Positions 27,486 through 62,274 of a stretch of 64,000 bases of DNA are shown piece after piece; the first letter of the stretch is position 1, and every line of letters starts with the position of its first letter. Source of the DNA: Streptomyces melanogenes. GTDB lineage: Bacteria > Actinomycetota > Actinomycetes > Streptomycetales > Streptomycetaceae. Made by a program: the position numbers and the translations under genes. The stretch lies in the NCBI RefSeq assembly GCF_014649795.1, contig NZ_BMTS01000007.1, positions 124,001 to 188,000 of the forward strand. Direction: 5' to 3'. The notes below the pieces were generated by a model. That model had not been told where the DNA came from and did no database searches. It saw nothing but the letters and a program-made list of their open reading frames with translations.

Positions 27486-27488
27486 GCT

Positions 27489-32934: not shown

Positions 32935-33007
32935 GACCCGTTCCTCCCCCCGCGCAGACCCTTGCGGCCTGCGGTCCCTGCGTCGGCCGGACAGTGGTTC
33001 CCGCGCA

Positions 33008-44595: not shown

Positions 44596-46454
44596 CAGTG
44601 GCTCTCCTCCTTGGCGCCCGCGGTGTCCGGGCCGGTGGGCGCCGGCTTGCTCAGGTAGGGCGCGAAGATCCGGCGGTAGAGGGGACAGTCCCGCAGGAGG
44701 TGTTCGTGGCTGCCCTGGTCGACGATCCGGCCGGCGTCCAGGACGAGGATGTGGTCGGCCGCCCGGATGCGGGACAGCCGGGGGGTGACGAGGAACGTGG
44801 TGCGCCCGGCCGAGGCCTGGCGCATGGCGCGCTGCACCTCGTATTCGGTGGCGCTGTCGACGGCGCTGGTGGCGTCGTCCACGGCGAGGATCCGGGGATC
44901 GGCGACCAACGCGCGGGCGATGGCGAGGCGTTGGCGCTGTCCGCCGGAGAGGGTGACACCGCGTTGGCCGACGACGGTGTCGTAGCCGTCCTCGGTCGCC
45001 ATGATGAAGTCGTGCGCCTGGGCGATGCGGGCCGTGGCTTCCAGGCGGGCGTGGTCGGTGCCGGTGTCCGATCCGAGGCTGAGGTTGTCCGCGATGGTGC
45101 GGGAGAAGAGCACCACGTCCTGCTCGATGACGGAGATGCGCGAGCGCAGCGAGGTGGTGTCCCAGTCGGTGGTGGCCACGCCGTCGATCAGGACGCGCCC
45201 CTCGTCCGGCGCGTAGGTGCGGTTCAGCAGGTGCAGCAGGGTGGACTTGCCGCTGCCCGTGGCGCCGACGATGGCCACGGTGGTGCCCGGGGCCACGTGG
45301 AACGACACGTCGCGCAGCACGGGCTTGCCGGGTTCGTAGCCGAAGGTGACGTTGTCCATGGCGACTTCGCCGGCGATGGGCGCGATGTGCCGGCCGCCCC
45401 GCTCGTCCTCGTTCTCGGGGTCGTCGACGACCTCCTTGATGCGCTGTGCTCCCGCCATGCCGAGGTAGATGAGCCCGAGGCTGAAGGACGCCAGCTGGGT
45501 GGGGGCTCGCAGGGTGCCCATCAGCCCCAGGACGGCGACGAGTTCGCCGATGGTGAGGGAGCCCGCGTGCAGCAGGATCACGGAGTGCACCAGGGCGCCG
45601 ACGGTGGCGAAGGTCAGCAGCAGCGGGGCCAGGGCCAGCGCCTGGGTGCGGATCTGGTGGACGGAGGCGTCCCGGTAGGCCCTGGCCAGTGCGGCGAACC
45701 GGGCGCGCTCCTCGTCGGCTCCGCCGGTCGACCCCACCACTTCGATCCCGGCGATGCTCTCCGAGGCCTGGGCGGTCATATCGCCGAATCGCTCCCGCGC
45801 GAGATCGGACACGGGCTCCAGGCGCCGTCCGTGTTCGGCCAGGGCCACGGCGAACAGCAGGACGAAGGCGACGGGGGAGACCAGCAGCCGCGGATCCACC
45901 AGGGCGATGAAGACGATCGGCATCAGGATGTTCAGCCCGAGGTCGACGGCCAGGTCGAAGCCGGGCGACACCATCAGGTTGAGTGACTCGGCGTCGCCGG
46001 TGGCCCGGGCCGACAGGTCGCCGACCCGCCGCCGGTTGAAGTAGCTCTGGCCCTTGCGGAGCAGGCTGGCGAAGACCTGGGCGCGCGCGTTGCGTTCCAG
46101 TCCGCTGGCGAAGGACTCCAGGCAGTAGGTGGCCATGATGCCGCCGAGCGCCCGGACGACCACGAGGGCGAGGAGTGCGGCGACGATGGCGTGGAAGGAG
46201 CCGAAGTCGGGCGTCCCGTCGTCCTGGTCGAGGATGGCGTCGAAGGCCAGACCGGTGACCAGGGGGATCGCCGCGGTCAGCGACTGCCAGGCCAGGCTGC
46301 CCAGCAGGAACAGGGCGATGTACGGCCTGAAGGGCCGCATCTGCGCGAGCAGCCAGCGGGGCACGCTGTCCTGAGCGCCTGCGCCGGACGCCGGTCGGGG
46401 AGGGGCACTGGTGTCGGCCGGATCCTCCCCGCCCGGGATGGTCTCGGCGGTCAT
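44595..46454 (-). CDS. ABC exporter half-transporter, degenerate ATP site
   Basis: 619 aa. Six membrane helices (about 45-320), then an NBD with Walker A GATGSGKST and a perfect LSGGQRQ signature, but Walker B reads ILAVDDATSAVD (catalytic Glu replaced by Asp) and the switch histidine is Pro in LVTPRLSRI. With the neighbour's LSTGQ signature this gives one weak and one consensus ATP site, as in known heterodimeric exporters of the TM287/288 and BmrCD kind. ATG 46454 has AAGGAG at ideal spacing and is the first gene of the minus-strand operon. Confidence 0.92.
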   Translation of the reverse strand: MTAETIPGGEDPADTSAPPRPASGAGAQDSVPRWLLAQMRPFRPYIALFLLGSLAWQSLTAAIPLVTGLAFDAILDQDDGTPDFGSFHAIVAALLALVVVRALGGIMATYCLESFASGLERNARAQVFASLLRKGQSYFNRRRVGDLSARATGDAESLNLMVSPGFDLAVDLGLNILMPIVFIALVDPRLLVSPVAFVLLFAVALAEHGRRLEPVSDLARERFGDMTAQASESIAGIEVVGSTGGADEERARFAALARAYRDASVHQIRTQALALAPLLLTFATVGALVHSVILLHAGSLTIGELVAVLGLMGTLRAPTQLASFSLGLIYLGMAGAQRIKEVVDDPENEDERGGRHIAPIAGEVAMDNVTFGYEPGKPVLRDVSFHVAPGTTVAIVGATGSGKSTLLHLLNRTYAPDEGRVLIDGVATTDWDTTSLRSRISVIEQDVVLFSRTIADNLSLGSDTGTDHARLEATARIAQAHDFIMATEDGYDTVVGQRGVTLSGGQRQRLAIARALVADPRILAVDDATSAVDSATEYEVQRAMRQASAGRTTFLVTPRLSRIRAADHILVLDAGRIVDQGSHEHLLRDCPLYRRIFAPYLSKPAPTGPDTAGAKEESH

Positions 46455-47259
46455 CGGCTCTCCTTGTCTGTGTCGGGGGCCGTGGTGTCCTCGGACCCGG
46501 AGGGGGCCGGTAAAGACAATCGGCGCATGGTTTTCGGCCAGGGTTTAACGAATTTCCGGGTGCGTGGCGCGCTGGTGATTTCCGGGCCGTCGTGTGAATT
46601 CGGCTGGGTCGGCAGAGGGGTGCCACGGGGAAGCGATCGGTGCGCCGCAGGCGTGTTCGCGGGCAGGAAACGGGCGTGCGGATGGGGCATACGGGCGTAC
46701 GGTTCGGGCAAAGGGGCTGCCCCGGGTATAGGTGCACGTGTGCGCACCCGGCGCGTATTGAGGCGGTGTGACCGAGGCATTGAGGTGGTGTGGCCGAAGT
46801 CTTCGGCGAGCTCGGTCGGATGAGGATCGTCCCTGTTCAGGGAAGTGGCATTGAGGGCGGAGGTCGTATCTTCGGCATCATGGATTTCCCTGGCACGCGA
46901 ACGGTCTTGGGGCGTGCCGTGGCATGGAAGCTACTTGTTTTCAGGGCGAAACGAAAGTCCGCCCCCGGGTTGCGCAAACAGCTAGTTGTTGAAAATTAAA
47001 TAAATACCCGAAGGGGCGCCCAATCGACATTTTCGGGCCGCCTGGCCTGAATGGGATGCGTCAAGTTGAATGGTTGATCTCACTCGAATCGTGTGGGTAC
47101 TGTGATGAGCTCCAGTGCTGTAACGGGTGTTCAAGTGAGCCGCTATTGCATGTACGCGATGGCGAGTCGGCCACAGCCTGACAGTGGACGGCACGGGGCG
47201 GCGGCATCTCCCCGTGCTGGCTACGCCGGAGCGCGTGGCGACAGTGAGGAGGAGTGAGA
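46455..47259. other. divergent promoter region with an AT-rich patch
   Basis: About 800 bp between the ABC exporter operon (-) and the LuxR regulator (+). No credible gene; short frames such as 46790-46999 lack ribosome sites. A markedly AT-rich patch lies at 46976-47007 (AAAATTAAATAAATA core), rare for this genome. A candidate + strand promoter is at 47074-47103. GGTTCGGGC at 46701-46709 resembles half of the repeated motif found at 48.0 kb. Confidence 0.5.
47074..47103 (+). promoter_or_regulatory. candidate promoter of the pseudo-receiver regulator
   Basis: TTGATC (47074-47079) and TACTGT (47098-47103) are separated by 18 nt, about 155 nt upstream of GTG 47260. Fits a sigma-70-type promoter only loosely. 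Confidence 0.3.
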
Positions 47260-47934
47260 GTGAGCCAGACGCTGTGCCACCCCCCGTCTCAAGGAGAACA
47301 GCTCGGTGTGATCACTCTGGTGCGCAACGGATTCCTGCAGCTCGGGCTGCGAGCCGTGCTGTCGACGACCCCCTTGGTCAGGGAGGTCAGACACTGCGGT
47401 GACTGGAGCGAGTTGGAGGACACGCTGTGTGCCAACAAGGTCGACGTCCTGGTCCTGCACGAGAAGGACTGCAGCCCTGATCGAGGTGTGCTCGCCGACG
47501 CCCGACGCCGGCGCCCCAAAATACTGCTGCTGCTCAGCAGCAGCGACGTGTCCGAGGAGGTCCTCGCGGGGCCCTCGGTCCCCGATGGATTTCTGGTCGA
47601 GAGCGAGTTGACCGCCACCGCGGTCGAGGAGGCGCTCCAGCGGATCGTGGTGGGGGAGGTGCCCATGCCCACCTCGGTGACCCGGGCCCTGCTGGATCGC
47701 GTCCGTGAGCCGGAACAGCAGCGTTGGCGCCGCGACGTCCCCCTGACCGGCCGGGAGAACGAGGTGCTGCCGATGCTCGCCGAGGGACTGAGCAACAAGC
47801 AGATAGCCCGGCGCCTCGGCATCTCCAGTCATGGCGTCAAGCGCATCGTCGCCAGCCTGCTGCTCAAGCTCGGAGCGCCCAACCGGACGGCCGCGGTGGT
47901 CACCGCCATACAGAACGGTCTCATTGCCTACTGA
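47260..47934 (+). CDS. LuxR-family regulator with pseudo-receiver domain
   Basis: 224 aa. C-terminal LuxR HTH (PLTGRENEVLPMLAEGLSNKQIARRLGISSHGVKRIV) and an N-terminal domain of receiver size. The acidic pocket is absent (ITLVRNGFLQLGLRAVL) and the phospho-acceptor strand reads VDVLVLHEKD, so it is probably controlled by ligand or protein binding rather than a histidine kinase; no kinase gene is near. GTG 47260 is chosen over GTG 47254 because GAGGAGGAG (47247-47253) fits only the later one. It sits between the exporter operon and the condensation gene and is the likely pathway-specific regulator. Confidence 0.84.
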   Translation: MSQTLCHPPSQGEQLGVITLVRNGFLQLGLRAVLSTTPLVREVRHCGDWSELEDTLCANKVDVLVLHEKDCSPDRGVLADARRRRPKILLLLSSSDVSEEVLAGPSVPDGFLVESELTATAVEEALQRIVVGEVPMPTSVTRALLDRVREPEQQRWRRDVPLTGRENEVLPMLAEGLSNKQIARRLGISSHGVKRIVASLLLKLGAPNRTAAVVTAIQNGLIAY

Positions 47935-48322: not shown

Positions 48323-49756
48323 GTGGCGGAATTCGTCCGGTACTGCACCCCCCTCAGTGGAGGACGAGCCGTCACAGCGCCGGCCACCTGCGCGCAGCGG
48401 CACATCTGGAACCTGATGCAGCGTCAACTACCCGACGCCGCGTTCTACGACGTGTGCTACTGGGTGCCGCTGTCCGGCCACGGCACCGCACAGGACCTGC
48501 TCGACGTCTTCGCCGAACTGCTCAGGCGCCACGAGTCGTTGCGTACCTCATTCCATCGGGACGCAGGCGGCTCTCTGGTCCAACAGGTCACGGACTCAGC
48601 TGAGTTCGAGACGGAGGTGTGGACCCTCACGCGCGACGAGGACGCCGACAGTGTGCTGCACACCTGGCAGAGCCGTATGCGGCACACCCCCTTCGAGCCC
48701 GCGCGGGCCCCGCTGATCCGGTTCATGGTGATCGTCGCCGACGGCGCACCAGTGTTCGCCGCGTACTGCGTCTCCCACCTCGTGGTGGACCTGACGTCCC
48801 TGCGCCTCCTGGCCGACGAGGTGACCCGGCTGCTCGACGCCCGGGTGGCCGGTCGCCCCCTGCCACCCGCCGCACCGGCACGGCAGCTCGTCGAGCAGGC
48901 GGAGTTGGAGCACTCTCCGCGCGGCCGGGCCCTGCTGAAGCGGGCGCGCGCCTACTGGAGCCGCCAGCTCGCCAGCGCGCCCGCCACCCTGTTCCCGCCC
49001 CGGAACGGAGCCGGGGGCGGCCTGGCGGCGGCGGTCCGCTACAGCGCCGGCATGGAGTCCCGGGCGGTGGCGCTCGCGGTGCCGCTCCTGGCCCGGCGCT
49101 GGCGGGTGAGCACCTCCGTGGTGCTGCTGACCGTCGTCGCACAGCTCCTTGGCCGCCGCGCGGGGACGCCGACGTGCGCCCTGCGCCTGCTCGCCGCCAA
49201 CCGGTCGGACCCGGAACTGCACGCCACCATCGGCAATCTGCACTCGGAGGTGGCCGTGACGATCGGCCTTGAGGGCGAGCGCATCGAGGAAGTCGCACGC
49301 CGGGCCTTCGCCGAGTGCACCGCCGCGTACGCGAACGGTCTCTACGACCCCGACGAGGTGGCGGAGCTGATCGCCTCCGCCCACGGGCCCGGTGTGCCCA
49401 TCGACCTCTCGTACTGCTTCAACGACGTCCGGTTGGAGCACACCCTGCCGCCCGAGGCCGAGGACCGTGCCGCGGTGTCCGGCGCGGCCCTGCGGGCCGC
49501 GATGGCCGACACCGTCGTCGCACCGGATGAGTTCGAGGAGGGGGAGACCTTCTTCCTCGTGATCGACGACGAGATTCCGGGCCGGATCCGGCTGGTGCTC
49601 AACGCCGACCACCGGGCGCTCACCCCGTCCGAGGTGCACGGATTCCTGTACGACGTCGAGCGCTCGCTCGTCGAGTACGCCGAGGGTACGGGGCAGCAGG
49701 CCATGGAAGAACGCGGCGCGGCGGCCGCAGGCGGGCTCGGCCGGTCCCTGTCCTAG
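48323..49756 (+). CDS. free-standing condensation-domain protein
   Basis: 477 aa, a complete NRPS-type C domain (CAT-like fold) with no adenylation or carrier domain. C1-like CAQRHIWNL, exact C2 RRHESLRTSF, and the active-site motif reading SHLVVDL at 151-157: the catalytic second His (152) and Asp (156) are kept, while the first His is Ser and the final Gly is Leu. Later GNLHSEV and YCFNDVRLE replace the usual latch motifs. It could join an acyl group to an amine or hydroxyl acceptor. GTG 48323 follows AAGGAG. No PCP is present locally, so the acyl donor may be CoA- or AMP-linked (inference). Confidence 0.85.
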   Translation: MAEFVRYCTPLSGGRAVTAPATCAQRHIWNLMQRQLPDAAFYDVCYWVPLSGHGTAQDLLDVFAELLRRHESLRTSFHRDAGGSLVQQVTDSAEFETEVWTLTRDEDADSVLHTWQSRMRHTPFEPARAPLIRFMVIVADGAPVFAAYCVSHLVVDLTSLRLLADEVTRLLDARVAGRPLPPAAPARQLVEQAELEHSPRGRALLKRARAYWSRQLASAPATLFPPRNGAGGGLAAAVRYSAGMESRAVALAVPLLARRWRVSTSVVLLTVVAQLLGRRAGTPTCALRLLAANRSDPELHATIGNLHSEVAVTIGLEGERIEEVARRAFAECTAAYANGLYDPDEVAELIASAHGPGVPIDLSYCFNDVRLEHTLPPEAEDRAAVSGAALRAAMADTVVAPDEFEEGETFFLVIDDEIPGRIRLVLNADHRALTPSEVHGFLYDVERSLVEYAEGTGQQAMEERGAAAAGGLGRSLS

Positions 49757-50395: not shown

Positions 50396-51838
50396 GTGAA
50401 CGTCCGTGCCGTCGGACCGGCGGTCGCTGTCCAGGGAGGCCCTGGGGTCTCCCCGTACGGACCGATGCCGGTCGAGAACCCCGCGCTCGGTGAGGTCTTC
50501 GACCGGACCCCGGGGTGCACGCCCGAACAGCTCGACAGGGTGCTGGAGGACGCGGCCCGTGCCTTCCCCGGCTGGGCGGCGACACCCTTGGACGTCCGTC
50601 GCGAGCGGCTTCTCTCGTGTGAGCGTGCCCTGCTGGGCGTGGTGGATCCGATGGCCGAACTGCTCACCAGGGAGCAGGGCAAGCCCCTCAAGCACGCCCG
50701 GGCCGAAGTCCGCCTCGCGGCCGAGTGGTTCGGCCACACCGCTCGGTTGGAGTTCGCGCCGCAGCGGCTGGTCGACGAGCCCGGCGCCCGCGTCGGCCTG
50801 GAGCGCGTGCCCCACGGAGTGGTCGCCGCGATCGCGCCCTCCAACTACCCGATCCTGCTGGCCGTCTGCAAGATTGCCCCCGCGCTGCTGGCCGGTAACA
50901 CCGTGGTCCTCAAGCCTTCGCCGGACACGCCGATGTCGAGCCTGATGATGGGCCGGATCCTGAGTGAGGTGCTGCCCGCTGGTACGTTCGCGGTCGTGGA
51001 CGGCGGTGCCGAGCTGGGTGCCCGGCTGACCGCCCACCCCGTGGTCCGGCTGGTCTCGTTCACCGGCTCGGTCGGCGCCGGGCGAGCTATCGCCCGGCAG
51101 GCCGCCGCCGACCTCAAACGGGTCGTGCTGGAGCTCGGCGGCAACGACCCGGCCGTCGTCCTGCCCGGCACGGACGTCCTGCCCCTCGCCCGGGACCTGT
51201 TCACCAGGGCCATGACGAACAGCGGGCAGTTCTGCGCCGCGGTCAAGCGCGTCTACGCGCCCCGGGACCGGTACCGCCAACTCGCCGAGGCCATGGCGGC
51301 CGTGGCGGACTCGGCCGTCGTGGGTGACGGGCTCGACCCGGCCACCGAGTACGGACCGCTCGTCAGCCGCGCCCAGCTGGACCGGGTCGCGGACATGGTG
51401 GACGAGGCCGTGGGCCGCGGCGCCCTCGTCCTGGCCGGCGGCCATGTCCTGGACAGGGCCGGCCACTTCTATCGCCCCACCGTCGTCACCGACCTTCCGC
51501 CCGGCAGCCGCCTCGAAGAGGAGGAGCAGTTCGGCCCGGTGGTCCCCGTCATCCCCTACGACGACCCGGAGCAGGTGATCGCCCGGGCCAACGCCTCGCC
51601 CTACGGGCTGGGCTGCTCCCTGTGGGGCGACGAGGACCGGGCGCGGGCCCTGGCCGGGCGGCCGGAGTGCGGGACCGTGTGGATCAACACCCACGGCGAC
51701 GTGCGGCACGACGTGCCGTTCGGCGGTCACCGGCACTCGGGGATCGGCGTCGAGTACGGCCCATGGGGTCTGAACGAGTACACGCAGCTCAAGGTGCATC
51801 ACATCGCGCTTCGCCAAGCAGATCGGGAGATGTCATGA
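50396..51838 (+). CDS. NAD(P)-dependent aldehyde dehydrogenase
   Basis: About 480 aa, full ALDH superfamily length. NAD-site AIAPSNYP and VVLKPSPDTP, glycine motif FTGSVGAGR, general-base Glu in LELGGND near residue 245, nucleophile Cys in NSGQFCAAVKR near 280, and EQFGPVVPV. Oxidises an aldehyde to an acid (or semialdehyde to acid). GGAG at 50384-50387 suits GTG 50396; GTG 50387 is an alternative. The stop overlaps the next ATG (ATGA), starting a four-gene coupled cassette. Confidence 0.9.
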   Translation: MNVRAVGPAVAVQGGPGVSPYGPMPVENPALGEVFDRTPGCTPEQLDRVLEDAARAFPGWAATPLDVRRERLLSCERALLGVVDPMAELLTREQGKPLKHARAEVRLAAEWFGHTARLEFAPQRLVDEPGARVGLERVPHGVVAAIAPSNYPILLAVCKIAPALLAGNTVVLKPSPDTPMSSLMMGRILSEVLPAGTFAVVDGGAELGARLTAHPVVRLVSFTGSVGAGRAIARQAAADLKRVVLELGGNDPAVVLPGTDVLPLARDLFTRAMTNSGQFCAAVKRVYAPRDRYRQLAEAMAAVADSAVVGDGLDPATEYGPLVSRAQLDRVADMVDEAVGRGALVLAGGHVLDRAGHFYRPTVVTDLPPGSRLEEEEQFGPVVPVIPYDDPEQVIARANASPYGLGCSLWGDEDRARALAGRPECGTVWINTHGDVRHDVPFGGHRHSGIGVEYGPWGLNEYTQLKVHHIALRQADREMS

Positions 51839-52380
51839 GTGAGAGCAGGCCGTTACGCGTCGACGGGACGGAGGGAATCGACCTGACGGGAGTCAGCGTC
51901 TTCGTCGGCGGCCCCATCCAGCACGCGATCCGGGACGACGGCTTCCACCAGCCGCTGCGCAACACGATCGGTGACATCATCGAGGCCGTCTCGGTCGTCA
52001 ACGGCACGGTGTTCTCCGCGCATGTCGCCGAGAAGTTCGGTGAGGACACGCCGTTGTTCTCGCCCGATCAGGTCAGTGTGCGGGACTTCGGCTGGATGCG
52101 GCGCTGCGACGTGTTCGTCCCGGTGCTTCCCGTGGACGCGGCCGGTGAGCTGATGCGGACCGACGGCACCCATGTCGAGCTCGGCTGGGCCTCCGCGCTG
52201 GGCAGGCCCATCGTCATCGTCACCCCGGTGCCGATGGCGGCCAACGCCAGCCACCTGCTGCGCGGGCTGCCCACCGTCGCCGACGTCACGGTCTTCGACC
52301 TGGCCGAGGCGCACGCCAACCCCGTCGAACTGCTGCGGCTGCTGGAGAAGTTGGGCCGGGAGGCCGTGATGTCGAAGTGA
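51835..52380 (+). CDS. nucleoside 2-deoxyribosyltransferase-like protein
   Basis: 181 aa. Begins VFVGGPIQHAIRDDGF, the Rossmann-like start of the NDT/YtoQ-type superfamily, and keeps the catalytic glutamate motif THVELGWASALG near residues 110-121 (NDT: VELGYA). Members cleave or transfer N-glycosidic bonds of (deoxy)nucleosides; some, such as the MilB/BlsM hydrolases, work in nucleoside antibiotic pathways. Codon 7 is TTA (51853-51855), a likely bldA control point. ATG overlaps the aldehyde dehydrogenase stop and its own stop overlaps the next GTG. Substrate unknown. Confidence 0.78.
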   Translation: MSESRPLRVDGTEGIDLTGVSVFVGGPIQHAIRDDGFHQPLRNTIGDIIEAVSVVNGTVFSAHVAEKFGEDTPLFSPDQVSVRDFGWMRRCDVFVPVLPVDAAGELMRTDGTHVELGWASALGRPIVIVTPVPMAANASHLLRGLPTVADVTVFDLAEAHANPVELLRLLEKLGREAVMSK

Positions 52381-53333
52381 CGGCCATCAAGGACGCGGGA
52401 AGCGCCCCCGAGGGTGTCGACGCGGTGCCCGACGCCGGGTCCGCGCCGGTGGAGGTCCTCGGGCTGCGCCTGCGGTCACCCGTCGTCGTGGGCTCTGGTC
52501 TCCTCACCGACCAGGAGCGCAACATCCGTCGGCTGCTCGAGGGCGGGGCGGGCGCCGTGGTCACCAAGACCATCCACCCCGACCCCGGCCCCTCGGGCAA
52601 CGAACGCCTGCTCCGTCTGCCCACGGGCATGCTCAACAACACCACGTACTCCCGTCGCTCCGTGGACGACTGGTGCGCGATGCTGCGCCGGTTCGCCGAC
52701 GACGGCCTGCCGGTGATCACCTCCGTGCACGCGGACTCGCCGGACCAACTCGCCGATCTGGCGGAGCGTGTGACCGATGCGGGCAGCGCAGCCCTGGAGC
52801 TCGGCATCTCGTGCCTCAACGAGGAGGGCGGCGGTCTGGAGGACACTCCCGAGCGGGTCGCCGCGTACACCGAGGCGGTGCGGCGCCGCACCCCGGTGGC
52901 GTTCAGCGTCAAGCTGGCGATCGGGGAGCGGGTGCGCGAGCGCATCGACGCCGCCACGGCCTCGGGCGCGGACGCGATCACCCTGAGCGACACCATCGCG
53001 GGTCTGGCCGTCGACGCCGACACCGGTGAGGTGCGCCTGGGAGGAGCGTTCGGCTACTCGGGGCCCGGCATCAAACCGCTCGTGCTCGCCGAGATCTTCG
53101 GGCTGCGCCGCGACGGGCTGACCGTGCCGGTCATGGCGAGCGGCGGAGTCAAGGACGCCGTGGACGTGGCGGAGTATCTGAGCGTGGGCGCCGAGGCCGT
53201 CCAGGTCTACACGGCGCTGCACCGGAACATGCACGTCACGCTCCGCACCATCCGCCAGGGCTTCGACGACTGGCTGGCCTCGCGCGGCGGCACGGTGGCG
53301 GACCTGGTGGGTCAGAGCGTGAAGAGGGCATGA
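52377..53333 (+). CDS. dihydroorotate-dehydrogenase-like flavoprotein
   Basis: 318 aa TIM barrel with FMN-type motifs: VVGSGLLTDQ, VVTKTI, ALELGISCLNE in place of the usual NISCPN (the Cys retained), FSVKLA and MASGGVKDAVD. Similar small DHODH-like proteins reduce or oxidise ring C=C bonds next to a carbonyl in pyrimidine-like or other substrates. It is not linked to pyrimidine biosynthesis genes, so a secondary role is likely. GTG start overlapping the NDT-like stop (GTGA). Confidence 0.84.
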   Translation: MTAIKDAGSAPEGVDAVPDAGSAPVEVLGLRLRSPVVVGSGLLTDQERNIRRLLEGGAGAVVTKTIHPDPGPSGNERLLRLPTGMLNNTTYSRRSVDDWCAMLRRFADDGLPVITSVHADSPDQLADLAERVTDAGSAALELGISCLNEEGGGLEDTPERVAAYTEAVRRRTPVAFSVKLAIGERVRERIDAATASGADAITLSDTIAGLAVDADTGEVRLGGAFGYSGPGIKPLVLAEIFGLRRDGLTVPVMASGGVKDAVDVAEYLSVGAEAVQVYTALHRNMHVTLRTIRQGFDDWLASRGGTVADLVGQSVKRA

Positions 53334-53334
53334 G

Positions 53335-54114
53335 GTGAAGGCGATGCGGCAACGCACCACGAACGTACCCCGCTACCAGGACCTGACCAGTCCGCAGGTG
53401 CCGCAGACCGCGGCCGGCGCCACCCTGGTGTGGCCGGTGGGAGGACTGGAGCAGCACGGCCCCCACCTCCCGCTCTCGGTCGACCTGGACATCCCGGAAG
53501 CCCTGGCCCGGCAGGTGGTCGCGGAGCTCGACGGTCTGCTGCTGCCCGGCCAGCCGCTCTCGGCCAGGTCGCTGCCGCAGAGCGGGGGCGGACTGCGCTT
53601 CCCGGGCACCGTCCACATCTGCGGCACCACCTTCATCGACTACCTGACGGACTGTCTGAAGTCCCTCTCCCGCCTCGGCCTCGGCCGGCTCGTCGTGATC
53701 AACGGGCACTACGAGAACGAGGGCCTGCTCTTCGAGGCGATCGACGGCTGCGCCCCGGACACCCTGTTCGCGGACACCGAGGTGGTCGCGTTCAGCTGGT
53801 GGAGTCTGGTCACCGACGCCTGGCTCGGCGAGCACATCCCGCACTTCCCCGGATGGCACGCCGAGCACGCGGGCCTGACCGAGACCAGCCTGATGATGTA
53901 TCTGCGCCCCGACGTCGTCCGCGCGGAGCGCCCCAGCCATTCCTCACCACCGCCAGCGGGGGTGTACCGGCACCCCGTCGACGTGGACGAGATCTCGAAC
54001 CAGGGTGTGCTGTCCTCCGCCGTCGGCGCCTCCGCCGAACTGGGGGAGCGCCTGTTCTGGCACCTGGTCGACGGCGCCGTCGAACTCCTCGGCAAGCCGT
54101 CCCGGGTCCCGTGA
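53335..54114 (+). CDS. creatininase-family amidohydrolase
   Basis: 259 aa. Metal-ligand motifs of the creatininase/MftE family: GGLEQHGPHLPLSVDLDI (Glu, His, Asp), INGHYEN and WHAEHAGLTETS near residues 165-176. Family members open cyclic amides or cut amide/formamide bonds (creatinine, FAPy, the mycofactocin peptide). Here it may open or close a lactam made by the preceding enzymes (inference). GTG 53335 follows GAGGG; ATG 53344 is an alternative. Last gene of the cassette, with an 88-nt gap to the sugar operon. Confidence 0.85.
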   Translation: MKAMRQRTTNVPRYQDLTSPQVPQTAAGATLVWPVGGLEQHGPHLPLSVDLDIPEALARQVVAELDGLLLPGQPLSARSLPQSGGGLRFPGTVHICGTTFIDYLTDCLKSLSRLGLGRLVVINGHYENEGLLFEAIDGCAPDTLFADTEVVAFSWWSLVTDAWLGEHIPHFPGWHAEHAGLTETSLMMYLRPDVVRAERPSHSSPPPAGVYRHPVDVDEISNQGVLSSAVGASAELGERLFWHLVDGAVELLGKPSRVP

Positions 54115-54202: not shown

Positions 54203-55507
54203 ATGCCATCGACCAGGCCGTACGAGGACTACGACGTGTGTGTCGTCGGGCTGGGCTACGTCGGCGTCACACTCACCGCCGCGCTGCTCACCACGGGCAG
54301 AAGCGTGCTCGGCTACGAGACCAACCCCAAGGCGGCCGACGAACTCGCCCGGGGCGTCCTGGAGTTGGCCGAACCGGGCGTCGAGGAGGAGATCGAGGGC
54401 GGGGCCGCGAGCGGTGCCTTCGCCGTCACCACCGACCTCGGCGAGCAAAAGCTGCCGCCCGTCGTCATCATCTGCGTCGGCACACCGATCGAGACCGGCG
54501 GGACCACACCCGATCTGAGCCATCTGCGGGCCGCCACCGAGGCGATCGCGGCCGGCATCGACGAGACCACCGTGGTCATCGTGCGCAGCACGGTACCGGT
54601 GGGTACCTCGCGGAGCCTGGTGCTGCCCCTCCTGCGCGGCAGGATCCCCGAACCGCTGCTCGCCTACTGCCCGGAGCGCACCATCCAGGGCCAGGCGCTG
54701 GCGGAACTGCTGTCCCTGCCGCAGATCGTCGGCGGTCTCAGCGACGAGGCGGCCAAGCGGGCCGCGGAGTTCTTCGGCACCCTCTCCGACCAGGTGGTGC
54801 CGGTGTCCTCGCTGGAGAGCGCCGAACTGGTCAAGCTGGTGTGCAACTGCCACACCGACCTGATCTACGGCTTCGGCAACGAGATCGCACTCATCACCGA
54901 GACCCTCGGCCTGGACGCACGCGAGGTCATCGACTCCGCCAACCTCGGCTATCCCCGGCCCACCCTGCACAAGCCGGGCTTCGTCGGCGGCAGCTGCCTG
55001 ACCAAGGACCCCTATCTGCTCGCGTACTCGGTCGCCGCGTACGACCACACACCCCAGATGATCACCGCGGCGCGCACGCTCAACGAGTCCATGCCGCGCA
55101 GGGTCGGCGAACGCGTCCTGGCCGCGCTGTGGGAGCAGGGCAGGGACCCGGCCGGCGCCAGGATCCTGATCTCGGGCTTCGCGTACAAGGGCCGTCCCGA
55201 GACCGACGATCTGCGCGGAGCCCCCTACGAGCGGCTGCTGCCGTTCCTCAGGGGCCGGGTCAAGGAGATCGTCGGGCACGACTTCGTGGTGCCGCCGGCC
55301 CGGATCGAGGCGCTGGGTGTCCGGGCGGTCGGCCTGACCGAGGGCTTCACCGGCGCGCACGCGGCCATCCTCCTCAACGACCACCGGCGCTACGGCGAGG
55401 TCGACGCCGCCGACCTGGTGGCGAGCATGGCGGACCCGGCACTGGTCTACGACACCTGGCGGGTCCTCCCGCCCTCGACGAAGGCGATGAGGCTCGGCCG
55501 TGCGTAA
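54203..55507 (+). CDS. UDP-sugar 6-dehydrogenase (WecC/UDP-ManNAc dehydrogenase-like)
   Basis: 434 aa. VCVVGLGYVGVTL at residues 12-24 binds NAD. AYCPERTIQG, SAELVKLVCNCHTDL and the catalytic Cys in FVGGSCLTKDPYLL (about residues 269-282) are those of the group that oxidises UDP-N-acetylhexosamines as well as UDP-glucose. Gives a UDP-hexuronate or hexosaminuronate. ATG 54203 with AGGGGG upstream. An open extension to 54005 is not needed. Overlaps the next gene by 8 nt. Distinct from the AlgD-like enzyme of the glycan locus. Confidence 0.9.
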   Translation: MPSTRPYEDYDVCVVGLGYVGVTLTAALLTTGRSVLGYETNPKAADELARGVLELAEPGVEEEIEGGAASGAFAVTTDLGEQKLPPVVIICVGTPIETGGTTPDLSHLRAATEAIAAGIDETTVVIVRSTVPVGTSRSLVLPLLRGRIPEPLLAYCPERTIQGQALAELLSLPQIVGGLSDEAAKRAAEFFGTLSDQVVPVSSLESAELVKLVCNCHTDLIYGFGNEIALITETLGLDAREVIDSANLGYPRPTLHKPGFVGGSCLTKDPYLLAYSVAAYDHTPQMITAARTLNESMPRRVGERVLAALWEQGRDPAGARILISGFAYKGRPETDDLRGAPYERLLPFLRGRVKEIVGHDFVVPPARIEALGVRAVGLTEGFTGAHAAILLNDHRRYGEVDAADLVASMADPALVYDTWRVLPPSTKAMRLGRA

Positions 55508-56483
55508 GAAGATCCTGATCACCGGAGGAGCGGGCTTCATCGGCCTGCACCTGGCCCGCCGTCTGGCCGCCACCTGCGAGGTCACCCTGCTCGACGACTT
55601 CAGCAGGGGCCGGTCCGACGCGGAGCTGTCCGCGCTGCTCGGCCCGGTCCACGTCGTCGGGCACGACCTCACCACGCCCGTGCCCGACGGACTGCTCCCG
55701 GACGACTTCGCCGAGGTCTACCACCTGGCCGCCGTCGTCGGCGTCGCCCACTCCAACGACAACCCCCGGCGGGTGCTGCGCACCAACCTCCTCACCACCG
55801 TCCACCTCCTCGACTGGTTCTCCGGCCTGACCGGAGCCACCCTCTGCTTCGCCTCCTCCAGCGAGGCCTACGCGGGCAGCGTCGAGGCCGGCATCGCGTC
55901 CGTCCCCACCACCGAAGACGTACCGCTGATGCTCCCCGATCCCACCGTGCCCCGTTCCTCGTACGGCTTCAGCAAGATCGCCGGAGAGCAGCTGTGCCGC
56001 ACCTACGCGCGCACCCACGGCTTCGCCCTGCGCATGGTCCGCTTCCACAACGTCTACGGACCCCGAATGGGATACGACCACGTCATCCCGCAGTTCATCG
56101 AGCGGCTGCTCGGCGGCGCGGACCCCTTCGAGATCCACGGCGCCGACCAGACGCGCGCGTTCTGCTACGTCGACGACGCCGTCGACGCCATCACCGCGCT
56201 GACCGCCCTGCCCACCAAGGAGCCACTGCTGGTCAACGTCGGCAACGACCAGGAGGAGATCCTCATCAGGGACCTGGCCCGGAGCGTCTTCGACGCCCTG
56301 GGCCGCCACCCGGCCGTCGACGTCCACCCCGCGCCCCCGCTGTCGCCCGCCCGGCGCCTGCCCGACATCTCCCGGCTGCGCGAACTGACCGGGTACCGCC
56401 CGGCGGTTTCACTGAGCGAGGGGTTGCGCCGCACCTGCGAGTGGTACAGCCGGGACATCGCGGCACGCGGAAGCGGAGCGTGA
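55500..56483 (+). CDS. NAD-dependent nucleotide-sugar epimerase/decarboxylase (extended SDR)
   Basis: 327 aa. GGAGFIG at residues 9-15, HLAAVVG, and catalytic SSYGFSKIAGE (Tyr/Lys). The sequence FHNVYGPRMGYDHVIPQFIERLL resembles UDP-glucuronate decarboxylase/epimerase relatives. Follows the dehydrogenase directly, so it probably acts on the UDP-uronate, by 4-epimerisation or decarboxylation to a pentose. GTG start in the end of the upstream gene; the stop overlaps the glycosyltransferase GTG. Confidence 0.88.
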   Translation: MRKKILITGGAGFIGLHLARRLAATCEVTLLDDFSRGRSDAELSALLGPVHVVGHDLTTPVPDGLLPDDFAEVYHLAAVVGVAHSNDNPRRVLRTNLLTTVHLLDWFSGLTGATLCFASSSEAYAGSVEAGIASVPTTEDVPLMLPDPTVPRSSYGFSKIAGEQLCRTYARTHGFALRMVRFHNVYGPRMGYDHVIPQFIERLLGGADPFEIHGADQTRAFCYVDDAVDAITALTALPTKEPLLVNVGNDQEEILIRDLARSVFDALGRHPAVDVHPAPPLSPARRLPDISRLRELTGYRPAVSLSEGLRRTCEWYSRDIAARGSGA

Positions 56484-57562
56484 GCGGCGTGCGCGTACGG
56501 TACGTCCACCGCGGCTACTTCCCGGCGCGTGCCGGAGCCGAACTGATGACGCAGTACCTCGCCGCGTCGATGAGCCGGCTCGGCTGGGACGCCGGCGTGT
56601 ACACCCACCAGGTCGACGAGGACACCGCGACCTTCATGCGGGGCGCGGGCGTGAGTATCCAGCCGCTTCCGGCCACGCCCGACGAGACCGACCGGGCGGA
56701 CGTGGTCCACGCCATCGACGCCTTCCACCCGCAGGACATCGCGGCCGGCCTGGACCTCGCCCGGGCCTGGGACGTGCCGTTCGCGGTCACCCCCGCCTCC
56801 GCCCCCGACGTCTGGCCGGACCGCGAGACCGTACTCGACGGCTGCCGCAGCGCGGACGCCGTCTTCGCCCTGTCCGTGGCGGAACGCGGCATGCTCCGCG
56901 ACGCCGGCGTCAACGCCTCCAGACTGCACATCATCGGCCAGGGACCACACCTGCCCGGCACCCCCGACCCCGCCCGGTTCCGCCGCGAGCACGGCATCGA
57001 AGGACCCGTGGTGCTCTTCCTGGGGCGCAAGACGCGCTCCAAGGGCTACGTCACGCTCCTGGAGGCCACCGAGCACGTCTGGCAGCAACACCCCGACACC
57101 ACCTTCGTGTTCATGGGACCCCGCTGGGACGAGGACTGCGCGCAGCGGTTCGCCGAGCACGCCGACCCCCGCGTCATCGAGCTCGGCATGGCCGACGAGG
57201 ACGCCAAGCACAGCGCCCTCGCCGCCTGCGAGCTGCTGTGCGTGCCCTCCACCGTCGACCTGTTCCCGCTCGTCTACGTGGAGGCGTGGGCCTGTCGCAA
57301 ACCCGTCGTCGCGTCCACCTTCCTCGGCAGTACGGAGGTCGTCGCCCACGGACGGGACGGCCTGCTCGTCCGCCCCACCGCCCGGACCGTCGCCGAGGCG
57401 GTCAACCGGCTCCTCGGCAACCCGTCCGAACGCCGCGCCATGGGAGAGCACGGCTACGACAAGGTGCGCCGTGAACTCGGCTGGGACGCGGTCGCCGACC
57501 GGGTCCACACCGTCTACCGCACGCTGATCGCCGCCCGGAAGCAAACGGAGAACGTCCGATGA
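56480..57562 (+). CDS. family 4 glycosyltransferase
   Basis: 360 aa GT-B enzyme. N-domain YVHRGYFPARAGAELMTQYLA, C-domain VLFLGRKTRSKGYVTLLEA, and the donor motif PSTVDLFPLVYVEAWACRKPVVAS (Glu pair). GTG 56480 overlaps the SDR stop (GTGA) and begins the fold at once; longer in-frame extensions are out of register with the operon. Likely attaches the sugar built by the surrounding genes to the cluster product. No membrane segment. Confidence 0.88.
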   Translation: MSGVRVRYVHRGYFPARAGAELMTQYLAASMSRLGWDAGVYTHQVDEDTATFMRGAGVSIQPLPATPDETDRADVVHAIDAFHPQDIAAGLDLARAWDVPFAVTPASAPDVWPDRETVLDGCRSADAVFALSVAERGMLRDAGVNASRLHIIGQGPHLPGTPDPARFRREHGIEGPVVLFLGRKTRSKGYVTLLEATEHVWQQHPDTTFVFMGPRWDEDCAQRFAEHADPRVIELGMADEDAKHSALAACELLCVPSTVDLFPLVYVEAWACRKPVVASTFLGSTEVVAHGRDGLLVRPTARTVAEAVNRLLGNPSERRAMGEHGYDKVRRELGWDAVADRVHTVYRTLIAARKQTENVR

Positions 57563-58323
57563 AAGCAGTGGTCCTGGCCGGAGGTGAGGGTCGTCGGTTG
57601 CGGCCCGCCACCCTGGCCACCCCCAAACCCCTCATCCCCATCGACGGCATACCGATCCTGCACATCATCCTGACGCAGTTGGAGCGCGCGGGCTTCACCC
57701 ATGTGTCGCTCTCCCTCGGCTACCGGGCCCACATGATCAAGGCGAGCTTCGGCGGTAGTTGTTCGCCGGATGTGGAGCTGGACTTCTTCCAGGAGGAGGA
57801 GCCGCTGGGCACCGCGGGCCCGCTCGCGCTGCTGCCGCCTTTCGAGGACTCCACCCTGGTGATGAACGCGGACCTGCTCACCGACATCGACTTCGCCGAC
57901 CTGGTCAGGCGCCACAAGAAGTCCCAGGCCGCCGCCACGGTCGCGCTCAGCCGCCAGGACATCGACATCGCGCACGGCGTGGTGGAACTCGACGAGGAGG
58001 GGCGCGTGACCGACTTCCGCGAGAAGCCCCGGTTGAGTTACCTGGTCAGCGGGGGCATCTATGTGCTGGAGCCGTCGTTGCTGCGGTTGCTGCCGCCGCG
58101 CGGCCGGCACGACATGCCCGCCCTGCTCGACCGGGCCCGGGCCGAGGGCGAGCGCATCGAGGGCCATGTCATCGAGGGGGACTGGCACGACATCGGCACG
58201 CCCGAGCAACTGGACCTGGCCGCCGCCGCGTTCCGCGCCGACCGGGCCCGCTACCTGGGCCGTCGCGCCGCGGCCGCGCTGTGTGCGGGGAGCGGCGCCT
58301 CGCAGGAGGTGGTGGGTGGATGA
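57559..58323 (+). CDS. sugar-1-phosphate nucleotidyltransferase
   Basis: 254 aa. VVLAGGEGRRLRPATLATPKPLIP is the nucleotide-binding signature, EEEPLGTAGPL and VMNADLLTDID provide metal and base contacts, and GDWHDIGTPEQL closes the sugar site. Short form without acyltransferase domain, like RmlA-, ManC- or HddC-type enzymes, so the NTP and sugar cannot be fixed. Makes an NDP-sugar for this operon. ATGA overlaps at both ends. Confidence 0.9.
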   Translation: MKAVVLAGGEGRRLRPATLATPKPLIPIDGIPILHIILTQLERAGFTHVSLSLGYRAHMIKASFGGSCSPDVELDFFQEEEPLGTAGPLALLPPFEDSTLVMNADLLTDIDFADLVRRHKKSQAAATVALSRQDIDIAHGVVELDEEGRVTDFREKPRLSYLVSGGIYVLEPSLLRLLPPRGRHDMPALLDRARAEGERIEGHVIEGDWHDIGTPEQLDLAAAAFRADRARYLGRRAAAALCAGSGASQEVVGG

Positions 58324-59471
58324 CGGCCTTCGACATCGCGCTGTACCGTCCGCAGATCGGGCCGGCCGCGATCGAGGCGGTCAGCGGCGTCCTGCGGTCC
58401 GGGTGGCTGTCGGCCGGGCCCGTCACCGAGGAGTTCGAGGGCAAGTACGCGGCCGCGCTGGGTGTCGGGTCCGCGGTCGCCGTCAGCAGCGGCACGGCCG
58501 CCCTGCACCTGGCCGTCCTGGCTCTGGGCCTGGGCCCGGGCGACGAGGTCGTGCTGCCGTCGCTGAACTTCGTCTCGGCCGCCGCGACTGTCGCGCTGTG
58601 CGGCGCCACCCCGGTGTTCGCCGACGTGAAGGGCCCGCACGACCTGTGCATCGACCCCGAGGACGCCGCCCGCCGCATCACCTCGCGCACCCGGGCGATC
58701 GTCGCCATGCACTACGGCGGTTACGCCGCCGATCTGACGGCCCTTTCCCGGCTGGCCCGTGCGCACGGCCTCGCCCTGATCGAGGACTGCGCCCACGCCC
58801 CCGTCACCGACTCGGTCCACGGCGTGCTCGGCACGGTCGGCGACATCGGTTGCTACAGCTTCTTCGCCACCAAGAACCTGGCCATGGGCGAGGGCGGCAT
58901 GGTGGTCGCCCGCGACCCCGTCGTGAGTGAGCGCATCCGGCGGCTGCGCTCGCACGCCCTGACCGTCAGCGCCCAGCAGCGCGACCGAGGCGGATCCTCG
59001 CTGTACGACGTCGACGCCCTGGGCCTCAACTACCGACCCACGGAGATCGGCTGTGCCATCGGGTGCGTCCAGCTGGAGGCCCTGCCCGCCGCACAGGCCC
59101 GCCGACGGGACGCGGTGCGGATGTACCGCGAGCGACTGGCCTCACTGCCCGGGCTCACCGTGCCGTTCGCCGACCGGCCCGTGGAGGACAGCGCCCACCA
59201 CCTGTTCGCCGTGGTGCTACCCGAGGGCACCGACCGCGAGGCGCTTCAGGGCCGGCTGCGCGCGGCGCGGATCCAGACCGGCGTGCACTACCCGCCCACC
59301 CACCTGTTCACCCCCTACCGGGAGCGCCAGGAGGACGAGCCGTGCCGTCTGCCGGTCACCGAGGACGTGATGGCACGTCAGCTCTCGCTGCCGCTGCACC
59401 CGGGCATCGGCGCGGCCGAGGTCCGCCAGGTCGTCGAAGCGGTGAGCGCCGCATGGCAGGAGACACCGTGA
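58320..59471 (+). CDS. DegT/DnrJ/EryC1-family PLP aminotransferase
   Basis: 383 aa. GSAVAVSSGTAALHLAV, EDCAHAPVTD (Asp of the PLP ring contact), the Schiff-base Lys in SFFATKNLAMGEGG near residue 185 and LNYRPTEIGCAIGCVQLE are all typical. Transfers an amino group from glutamate to a keto-sugar nucleotide, implying an amino sugar in the product. ATG 58320 overlaps the upstream stop (ATGA). The gene end contains AGGAGA, which serves as the ribosome site of the next gene. Confidence 0.9.
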   Translation: MTAFDIALYRPQIGPAAIEAVSGVLRSGWLSAGPVTEEFEGKYAAALGVGSAVAVSSGTAALHLAVLALGLGPGDEVVLPSLNFVSAAATVALCGATPVFADVKGPHDLCIDPEDAARRITSRTRAIVAMHYGGYAADLTALSRLARAHGLALIEDCAHAPVTDSVHGVLGTVGDIGCYSFFATKNLAMGEGGMVVARDPVVSERIRRLRSHALTVSAQQRDRGGSSLYDVDALGLNYRPTEIGCAIGCVQLEALPAAQARRRDAVRMYRERLASLPGLTVPFADRPVEDSAHHLFAVVLPEGTDREALQGRLRAARIQTGVHYPPTHLFTPYRERQEDEPCRLPVTEDVMARQLSLPLHPGIGAAEVRQVVEAVSAAWQETP

Positions 59472-61375: not shown

Positions 61376-62274
61376 TCGTCGACGCGCATGTGCACGCGGG
61401 GGAGTACTACCGCCACTACTCGGCCCGCTTCGCCGAGCAGATGACCGCCACCACCGACCTGGCACCCGAGGACCTGTCCGCGCCGGAGGCGAAACTGCTC
61501 GCCGAGATGGACGCCGCGGGCGTCGACCGTGTCTTCCTGCTCGCCTTCGACGTACAACGCGTCGAGGGGTTCTCGGTGCCGAACGAGTTCGTCGCCGAGC
61601 TGTGCGCCCGCCACCCCGACCGGCTGACCGGCTTCGCCTCCGTGGACGCGGGCGTCCCGGGCGCGGCCGGGCGCCTGCGCGAGGCCGTGACCGGCCTCGG
61701 CCTGCGCGGGCTGAAGACCGCCCCCTGCTACCTGCGCATGTCACCCGCCGACCGGCGGTGGTACGACGTGTACGAGACGGCCATGGACCTGGGCCTCCCG
61801 GTCCTGATCCACACCGGATACACACCGTCGCGCAACGCGGACGCCCGGTTCTTCTCCCCGCTGCTCGTGGAGCAGGTGGCCCGGGACTTCCCCGACCTCA
61901 CGGTGATCCTCGCCCACCTCGGCACCCCCTGGACCCGGCCGTGCGTCGACCTGCTCGCCCGGCACGCCAACCTCCACGCGGACCTGTCCATCTTCGGCTC
62001 CTACCAGCCGCCCGCCACCGTGGCCCGGGCACTGGCCCACGCCCGCGACAGCGGTGTCCTCGACCGGCTCCTGTGGGGCACCGACTTCCCCTTCGCCTCC
62101 ATGACCGGGTCCGTGACCCGCATGGCCGAGCTGGCCCGGGACCCCGGCCTGTGGCCGCACGGCAGCGACCCGCTCTCGCCGCGCGAGTACGCGGCCCTCA
62201 TGGGCGGTACGGCGGCGCGGCTGCTCGCCCGCGCCGCACCCCGAGCCACACCGACTCCCCCTTCGAACCGATGA
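61372..62274 (+). CDS. amidohydrolase-2 family metal-dependent hydrolase/decarboxylase
   Basis: 300 aa TIM barrel. Metal ligands His6-x-His8 in VDAHVHAGEYY, further His in VLIHTGYTPS and ILAHLGTPW, and Asp in LWGTDFPFAS: the pattern of the ACMSD-like amidohydrolase_2 group, which contains decarboxylases and lactone/amide hydrolases. GTG start overlapping the glycoside hydrolase stop (GTGA). Substrate unknown; its place argues for a late step on the cluster product or a ring-opening reaction. Confidence 0.85.
   Translation: MIVDAHVHAGEYYRHYSARFAEQMTATTDLAPEDLSAPEAKLLAEMDAAGVDRVFLLAFDVQRVEGFSVPNEFVAELCARHPDRLTGFASVDAGVPGAAGRLREAVTGLGLRGLKTAPCYLRMSPADRRWYDVYETAMDLGLPVLIHTGYTPSRNADARFFSPLLVEQVARDFPDLTVILAHLGTPWTRPCVDLLARHANLHADLSIFGSYQPPATVARALAHARDSGVLDRLLWGTDFPFASMTGSVTRMAELARDPGLWPHGSDPLSPREYAALMGGTAARLLARAAPRATPTPPSNR

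Follow-up and report, generated by a model that had tools for sequence, protein, structure and literature searches.

A four-gene cassette of Streptomyces melanogenes in a probable pyrrolamide cluster, and the wider distribution of its three-gene core

INTRODUCTION

What might an aldehyde dehydrogenase (ALDH), an enzyme of N-glycosidic bonds, a flavin-dependent enzyme of pyrimidine rings and a hydrolase of cyclic amides be doing together in one tightly packed operon? Such a cassette occupies positions 50396-54114 of the window, the whole 64,000-nucleotide stretch of Streptomyces melanogenes DNA analyzed here (G000:C7:124001-188000), part of a 9.58 Mb genome. An initial interpretation made from the letters without database searches, hereafter the sequence-only reading, proposed a single pathway for making or remodeling a small N-heterocycle and knew of no described route with this set of genes. 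The answer developed below is that the cassette very probably belongs to a pyrrolamide cluster, in which the last three genes, termed the triad, would produce 3-aminopropionamidine from cytidine monophosphate (CMP) by way of cytosine and dihydrocytosine, and the ALDH would act on the pyrrole branch. What is shown directly is gene content, conservation, catalytic residues and homology to a Streptomyces netropsis locus. The pathway type is already known; it is the portability of the triad and an either/or choice of head-group genes that deserve follow-up.

THE CASSETTE

The four genes are as follows:

50396 (or 50387)-51838, + strand: ALDH (Pfam Aldedh, E 5.6e-133, 444 bits)
51835-52380, + strand: nucleoside deoxyribosyltransferase-like (NDT) protein resembling the CMP N-glycosidases of the MilB/BlsM group (Pfam Nuc_deoxyrib_tr, 28.6 bits)
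52377-53333, + strand: flavoprotein resembling dihydroorotate dehydrogenase (DHODH) and dihydropyrimidine dehydrogenase (Pfam DHO_dh, E 5.7e-26, 91.8 bits)
53335-54114, + strand: creatininase-like amidohydrolase (Pfam Creatininase, E 1.1e-53, 182.5 bits against a cut-off of 31.3)

Open reading frames (ORFs), overlaps and Pfam assignments agree on the one tight operon that the sequence-only reading described. An ATGA overlap joins the ALDH and NDT genes and a GTGA overlap the NDT and DHODH genes, the GTG start of the creatininase gene falls 2 nt past the last DHODH base (one base lies between), and the GC content of third codon positions is 0.90-0.92 across all four ORFs. NCBIfam models stayed below their cut-offs for all four proteins (for the ALDH, among the 25 of 42 models shown), and the NDT protein had no NCBIfam match of any kind.

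LIKENESS TO THE S. NETROPSIS PYRROLAMIDE CLUSTER

The chief evidence for a pyrrolamide cluster comes from S. netropsis CECT 3265, through whose genes the comparison with congocidine and distamycin biosynthesis was made. Its counterparts of the triad are 78-81% identical to those of the window. Counterparts of the six sugar genes downstream, encoding a nucleotide-sugar dehydrogenase (UDPDH), an epimerase/dehydratase (EPIM), a GT4 glycosyltransferase, a nucleotidyltransferase (NTPT), a DegT aminotransferase and a glycoside hydrolase (GH), reach 72-83%, and those of the regulator, condensation (C) domain, ATP-binding cassette (ABC) exporter, amidohydrolase, methyltransferase and alcohol dehydrogenase reach 60-78%. 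The CECT 3265 locus further contains an adenylation-peptidyl carrier-condensation (A-PCP-C) protein, two separate C-domain proteins and a discrete peptidyl carrier protein (PCP). This is the unusual nonribosomal peptide synthetase (NRPS) set given for congocidine and distamycin in excerpts of PMC4047045, which describe both compounds as products of S. netropsis CGMCC 4.1650 and have all the pyrrolamides studied there share 3-aminopropionamidine as a precursor. The statement that no described pathway holds this gene set is very probably wrong, since S. netropsis, a published producer of congocidine and distamycin, carries the triad and an ALDH in its cluster. In the cgc cluster, members of the same three families as the triad presumably turn cytosine into 3-aminopropionamidine, and the six sugar genes, UDPDH to GH, are taken to make 4-acetamidopyrrole.

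The same comparison bears on a role in nucleoside-antibiotic biosynthesis, where the cassette would supply the base, as happens in the mildiomycin and blasticidin clusters with their MilB and BlsM enzymes. The NDT protein does resemble MilB and BlsM, and a UDP-sugar dehydrogenase and an aminotransferase lie nearby; yet each of the neighbors has its counterpart in the S. netropsis cluster, as do the C domain, the PCP and the ligase, and a nucleoside antibiotic is accordingly the least credible of the alternatives considered. A peptidyl-nucleoside interpretation, built on the MilB likeness and the UDP-sugar genes, was dropped on this match.

CONSERVATION OF THE TRIAD AND THE PLACE OF THE ALDH

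Relatives were sought in 297 genomes of the family, the own genome included, 40 of which had an NDT match. NDT relatives with E <= 8.3e-47 occurred in 14 genomes, and DHODH and creatininase genes stood beside the NDT gene in all 14; they did so in none of the 16 weaker relatives for which short loci were fetched (within ~1.5 kb). A pattern-based contig scan supplied 70 related loci in named genomes, with triads called by script-defined identity thresholds. The full triad is present in 53 of the 70, spread over Actinobacteria and Proteobacteria, and its order, NDT-DHODH-creatininase on one strand, is constant in 52 of these, with a Chromobacterium locus (L111) as the exception. The 53 loci comprise six of pyrrolamide type, 20 with an NtaA/DmoA-type monooxygenase and 27 with neither; partners may go unseen where a locus is cut by a contig end or by the 10 kb flank, and the partner counts of classes S and T are lower bounds. 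Chance co-occurrence had been named as what would undo the sequence-only reading: the grouping of NDT, DHODH and creatininase goes beyond chance, and the ALDH keeps company with the triad in pyrrolamide-type loci only.

The ALDH, which contains the motifs GQFC and LELGG, lies directly before the NDT gene in the window and in four of the six pyrrolamide-type loci by the identity threshold of the script. Broken ALDH pieces of 74-81% identity occupy the same place in a fifth, L048, which is cut at a contig end, and in S. netropsis a 60% identical relative is placed between the genes for the A-PCP-C protein and the PCP. Within the fetched stretches, no ALDH was found in any of the 47 other triad loci. 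Because it occurs in pyrrolamide loci only, the ALDH goes with the pyrrole genes and not with the triad. An aldehyde dehydrogenase presumably finishes the pyrrole acid, and the ALDH of the window is probably this last oxidation, separate from the triad. It would convert a sugar-derived pyrrole aldehyde to 4-acetamidopyrrole-2-carboxylate, which would then be assembled on separate NRPS domains.

A linear pathway that employs all four genes on a new small N-heterocycle, the initial proposal, is very unlikely in this light. The tightness of the operon and the recurrence of the ALDH in the same place (four of six pyrrolamide loci, with the fifth in pieces) speak for it; the absence of the gene from 47/47 other triad loci, its different position in the S. 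netropsis cluster, and a known cluster type that accounts for both parts speak against it. The single-pathway claim is supported for NDT, DHODH and creatininase and is not supported for the ALDH.

THE PROPOSED ROUTE FROM CMP TO AN AMIDINE

The substrates and products assigned to the four cassette enzymes are all proposals. For the first step, the six nearest solved chains of the NDT protein are all CMP-hydrolase entries, MilB and BlsM among them (E 3.6e-13 to 2.4e-9), although the protein narrowly misses the gathering score of Nuc_deoxyrib_tr (PF05014; 28.6 against 28.8 bits). MilB contact residues, taken from excerpts of PMC4081090, map onto it as E62 to E66, D78 to D84, S97 to T109, G99 to G111, E103 to E115, F22 to I28 and R23 to Q29. 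The protein thus shares with MilB and BlsM both family and aligned catalytic residues, E66, D84, G111 and E115 being retained in 53/53 triad loci, and it keeps the residue that in MilB contacts the 4-amino group of cytosine. It differs in the replacement of Phe22 by Ile, Arg23 by Gln and Ser97 by Thr, and in a 6-residue insertion ahead of the nucleophile loop. Where hydroxymethyl-CMP hydrolases show the motif F-L-(G/A)-(G/A)-P-F-(R/K), the triad proteins have Pro-Ile-Gln, in 53/53 loci and in 13/13 sequences of alignment A1; Gln in the place of Arg or Lys argues against a hydroxymethyl-CMP substrate. As a CMP N-glycosidase, the NDT protein would release cytosine and ribose 5-phosphate from CMP.

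The flavoprotein scores below all cut-offs for class 1B DHODH and for dihydropyrimidine dehydrogenase/PreA, with 151 against 269 bits for the dihydroorotate dehydrogenase equivalog and 100 against 335 for that of PreA. Aligned to dihydropyrimidine dehydrogenase and DHODH B, it keeps the active-site Cys and Lys, and a Thr following a changed Asn is shared in 52/53 loci. Two of the four aligned Asn positions are altered, to Gly and to Asp, in 53/53. We take these Asn positions to be contacts to orotate or the base, and the Cys and Lys to have their customary roles. The change from Asn to Asp is plausibly a switch from uracil to cytosine, as an Asp would be expected to suit a 4-amino rather than a 4-oxo pyrimidine. 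The enzyme would then reduce the 5,6 double bond of cytosine to yield 5,6-dihydrocytosine.

The third protein belongs to the creatininase superfamily (PF02633), scoring above the gathering threshold with its metal-ligand positions retained in 53/53 triad loci, and falls short of creatininase proper (TIGR04448; 190.6 against 235 bits). The Trp positions and the Glu-His pair that align with creatininase (solved chains 1q3k and 1j2t) are likewise kept in 53/53. The differences lie in an Asp-to-His change ahead of the Glu-His pair, again in 53/53, and in the HYE motif, where the central residue is Tyr in 30/53 and Phe in 23/53. Creatininase opens the cyclic acyl-guanidine of creatinine, and dihydrocytosine holds a matching cyclic acyl-amidine. 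Hydrolysis of this ring bond by the metalloenzyme would give N-carboxy-3-aminopropionamidine, a carbamate expected to lose CO2 and leave free 3-aminopropionamidine, the amidine tail of the pyrrolamides. A route in which an N-glycosidic-bond enzyme, a flavin enzyme of pyrimidine rings and a cyclic-amide hydrolase act on one small N-heterocycle, as the sequence-only reading had it, is supported; the direction it suggested, the making of a lactam or modified pyrimidine, is less likely than the dismantling of a heterocycle, presumably cytosine, into an acyclic amidine.

A different use of the same chemistry would be the reductive degradation of uracil or another pyrimidine to a ureido acid, for base catabolism or beta-alanine supply, and this function would then explain why the triad was brought into the cluster. 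The enzyme types do parallel the reductive pyrimidine route, and 20/53 triad loci carry an NtaA/DmoA-type monooxygenase, some with a flavin reductase and a RutE-like protein. This alternative is nonetheless unlikely: the NDT protein groups with CMP hydrolases, two base-contact Asn residues are changed in the flavoprotein, the hydrolase is creatininase-like and not dihydropyrimidinase-like, and the tail precursor would be left without evident genes in the pyrrolamide loci.

Several observations weigh against the CMP-to-amidine assignment and its setting. The NDT positions named above, the glutamate included, are kept in 17/17 NDT-only loci and 16/16 distant relatives, and for this reason mark the whole group and not the cassette. 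The constancy of Ile and Gln is partly built in, as VGGPIQHA served as the search pattern and biases residue statistics at those positions. A further Asn position of DHODH is Asn in 43/53 and His in 10/53, the cassette contains no electron-transfer partner for the flavoenzyme, and the ALDH does not adjoin the triad in S. netropsis. The link between the triad and 3-aminopropionamidine reportedly goes back to work by Juguet in 2009 and later studies of congocidine. CECT 3265 has an Amidohydro_2 gene, 78% identical to that of the window, between its GH and methyltransferase genes, and according to excerpts of PMC4047045 no counterpart of the amidohydrolase Cgc14 is found in the main cluster of S. 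netropsis CGMCC 4.1650; the Amidohydro_2 gene may differ from Cgc14, or the two strains may differ from each other. The text of PMC4047045 names the precursor and makes no mention of cytosine, DHODH, creatininase or aldehyde dehydrogenase. Literature searches gave no paper that links a creatininase to either a DHODH or an NDT within clusters of Streptomyces, and a single paper on 3-aminopropionamidine. Despite the Cgc14 disagreement, the cluster is still taken as one for a pyrrolamide.

NEIGHBORING GENES

The surrounding genes, with neighborhoods rechecked by tblastn, are listed from upstream to downstream; percentages are identities to S. netropsis proteins unless another species is named.

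41166-42701, - strand: AMP-dependent acyl-CoA synthetase (Pfam AMP-binding; 61%, and 79% to S. atriruber)
44595-46454, - strand: ABC exporter subunit (74% to the protein in the same place)
47254-47934, + strand: LuxR-family regulator (Pfam GerE; 66%)
48323-49756, + strand: stand-alone NRPS condensation domain (Pfam Condensation, E 1.9e-26; 60%)
54203-55507, + strand: UDPDH, pyrrole branch (Pfam and TIGR03026 above cut-off; 77%)
55500-56483, + strand: NAD-dependent epimerase/dehydratase (EPIM), pyrrole branch (Pfam; 83%)
56480-57562, + strand: GT4 glycosyltransferase, pyrrole branch (Pfam; 72%)
57559-58323, + strand: sugar-1-phosphate nucleotidyltransferase (NTPT), pyrrole branch (Pfam; 75%)
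58320-59471, + strand: DegT/DnrJ/EryC1 aminotransferase, pyrrole branch (Pfam; 75%)
59453-61375, + strand: GH35/42-like glycoside hydrolase, pyrrole branch (Pfam, on 59465-61375; 76%)
61372-62274, + strand: amidohydrolase (Pfam Amidohydro_2, 132.9 bits)
62286-63110, + strand: methyltransferase (Pfam; 75%)
63107-64000, on to ~64153, + strand: zinc alcohol dehydrogenase (Pfam ADH_N/ADH_zinc_N on the full gene, in L045; 78%)
L045:2251-2637, just past the window: discrete PCP (Pfam PP-binding, 32.5 against 20.8; 74% over 77 aa)
64720-66558 in window positions (L045:2720-4558), just past the window: ATP-grasp-like gene and EctC-like cupin gene

The ABC families were seen by Pfam on the S. netropsis neighbor (L031:2540-5017), and relatives of the Amidohydro_2 protein, 75-91% identical, occur in five of the six other pyrrolamide genomes. 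A desaturase-like protein (L045:4858-5910) adjoins the EctC-like gene; its best NCBIfam model is the guanitoxin arginine hydroxylase GntB, at 62.5 against 380 bits. Farther away, positions 25551-34486 of the - strand hold exopolysaccharide-type genes, with an Asn synthase, Wzz, a GT4 glycosyltransferase, a UDP-sugar dehydrogenase and a bacterial sugar transferase.

AN EITHER/OR CHOICE OF PRESUMED HEAD-GROUP GENES

Seven pyrrolamide genomes could be compared: the own genome and those of S. netropsis, S. coffeae, S. niphimycinicus, S. sp. ERV7, S. atriruber and S. uncialis. A close A-PCP-C protein, the Cgc18-type hallmark of the congocidine subtype, is found in S. netropsis, S. coffeae, S. niphimycinicus and S. 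sp. ERV7 (61-100% identity overall, 61-66% in the latter three). All 34 matches in the own genome are at 27-44%, and the matches listed for S. atriruber and S. uncialis do not exceed 44%. With no close match listed for these three genomes, an A-PCP-C NRPS was no longer regarded as a requirement of all pyrrolamide clusters. The four A-PCP-C clusters share a second feature, a gene for a 377-residue protein between the creatininase and UDPDH genes (L031:11964-13097, and in L048, L049 and L102; 78-100% identical), which has no match in Pfam, NCBIfam or the PDB. The creatininase-UDPDH gap is 1.27-1.29 kb in these clusters as against 69-89 bases in the other three.

The other three genomes carry the complement. 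Close relatives of the ATP-grasp-like protein (75-83%) and of the EctC-like cupin (86-90%) unite the own genome with S. atriruber and S. uncialis; the four A-PCP-C genomes show no ATP-grasp match at E 1e-8 and distant cupins only (32-47%). The EctC-like cupin has 125 residues, its nearest solved chains are ectoine synthases, and its score is 119 against a cut-off of 128 bits. Ectoine synthase EctC is described in excerpts of PMC4795551 as converting glutamine, in a side reaction, to the cyclic amidine 5-amino-3,4-dihydro-2H-pyrrole-2-carboxylate (ADPC). In S. uncialis the ATP-grasp and EctC-like matches seem to lie elsewhere in the genome, with coordinates past the end of the contig that bears the triad locus. 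Either the A-PCP-C protein or the ATP-grasp/EctC-like pair is present in 7/7 pyrrolamide genomes.

ADPC, a cyclic 5-imino-proline, is presumably the head group of anthelvencin and noformycin, and the ATP-grasp ligase of the anthelvencin cluster is reportedly Ant23. The either/or pattern, the EctC-ADPC chemistry and this presumed head group together lead to the prediction of an anthelvencin-like pyrrolamide as the product, and the cluster looks like an anthelvencin-type variant. Literature searches on noformycin, dihydrocytosine, anthelvencin and related names gave no biosynthesis paper among the 20 listed of 29 matches, bar one passage of a review, PMC10949845, whose excerpt mentions anthelvencin gene deletions in one place.

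WIDER USE OF THE TRIAD

The triad is far more widespread than pyrrolamide clusters, Photorhabdus included. For the 27 loci outside the two defined classes, partner families were named after looking at one or two members. An ATP-grasp gene belonging to a single family (39-100% identity to that of L052) is present in 15 of the 27, in four of these 15 together with an EctC-like cupin; ten have an acyl carrier protein (ACP)-aminotransferase gene (nine Photorhabdus and one Pseudomonas), with the polyketide synthase (PKS) query gene in nine of the ten; and two have neither an ATP-grasp nor an ACP-aminotransferase gene. The four loci that combine an EctC-like cupin with the triad and an ATP-grasp gene (L052:9526-15147, which also has a major facilitator superfamily (MFS) gene, L056, L060 and L095) look like minimal clusters of noformycin type, noformycin being presumably ADPC joined to 3-aminopropionamidine. 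Another ATP-grasp locus, L065, has ketosynthase and class-III aminotransferase genes confirmed by Pfam, and three of its ORFs without a Pfam match may be shadow frames. The Photorhabdus triad loci (L054, L055, L061, L063, L064, L068, L069, L072 and L097) carry the PKS query gene in 8/9 cases, and Pseudomonas sp. S30 (L053) has a gene set similar to theirs.

In the monooxygenase class, whose family names rest on one member, L042, the fetched stretches hold a flavin reductase in 14/20, a RutE-like protein in 9/20 and an efflux-type MFS transporter in 17/20. The RutE-like protein of L042 scores 227 bits, above the 152-bit cut-off of its model. Many loci of this class also have an AsnC-type regulator, as in L042:7881-16110. 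A Rut-like catabolic operon, the initial interpretation of the stand-alone clusters, is a possible reading of the 20 monooxygenase loci and suits the window less well.

The triad is missing from 17 of the 70 loci. Among these are all 11 from Xenorhabdus (L101, L103, L105-L110, L112, L113 and L116), where the fetched stretch shows an NDT relative and neither a DHODH nor a creatininase gene, L110 being cut just upstream of the NDT gene.

There is perhaps an even chance that the triad is a portable module from CMP to 3-aminopropionamidine, employed in at least five kinds of cluster, and that the cluster of the window leads to a pyrrolamide with a 5-imino-proline head made without an A-PCP-C NRPS. 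The five kinds would be pyrrolamide clusters; loci resembling a noformycin cluster, in which ATP-grasp and EctC-like genes accompany the triad; loci that combine an ATP-grasp gene with ketosynthase and aminotransferase genes; the NRPS-PKS-aminotransferase loci of Photorhabdus and Pseudomonas; and the NtaA-type monooxygenase loci. If this is true, the triad becomes a handle for finding unseen amidine natural products by genome mining. The breadth of its distribution makes it usable in a search for new amidine compounds, and it also offers a way to test a short route from nucleotide to amidine. This wider use outside the pyrrolamides is a better lead than the cassette itself.

COMPARISON WITH KNOWN SYSTEMS

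What appeared to be a candidate unknown pathway can now be placed in the congocidine/distamycin family of DNA-binding antibiotics. Compared, through S. netropsis CECT 3265, with the clusters of this family (cgc in S. ambofaciens, pya in S. netropsis), that of the window shares the triad, the six sugar-to-pyrrole genes, the C domain and the PCP, along with the acyl-CoA synthetase, ABC exporter, LuxR regulator, amidohydrolase, methyltransferase and alcohol dehydrogenase. Unlike them, it has no close A-PCP-C NRPS, its own genome offering matches of <=44% identity; and unlike S. netropsis, it has no 377-residue gene between creatininase and UDPDH, and its neighbors include an ATP-grasp and an EctC-like gene. 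The anthelvencin cluster presumably combines an ATP-grasp ligase with a product bearing an ADPC head, and would share the ATP-grasp feature with that of the window.

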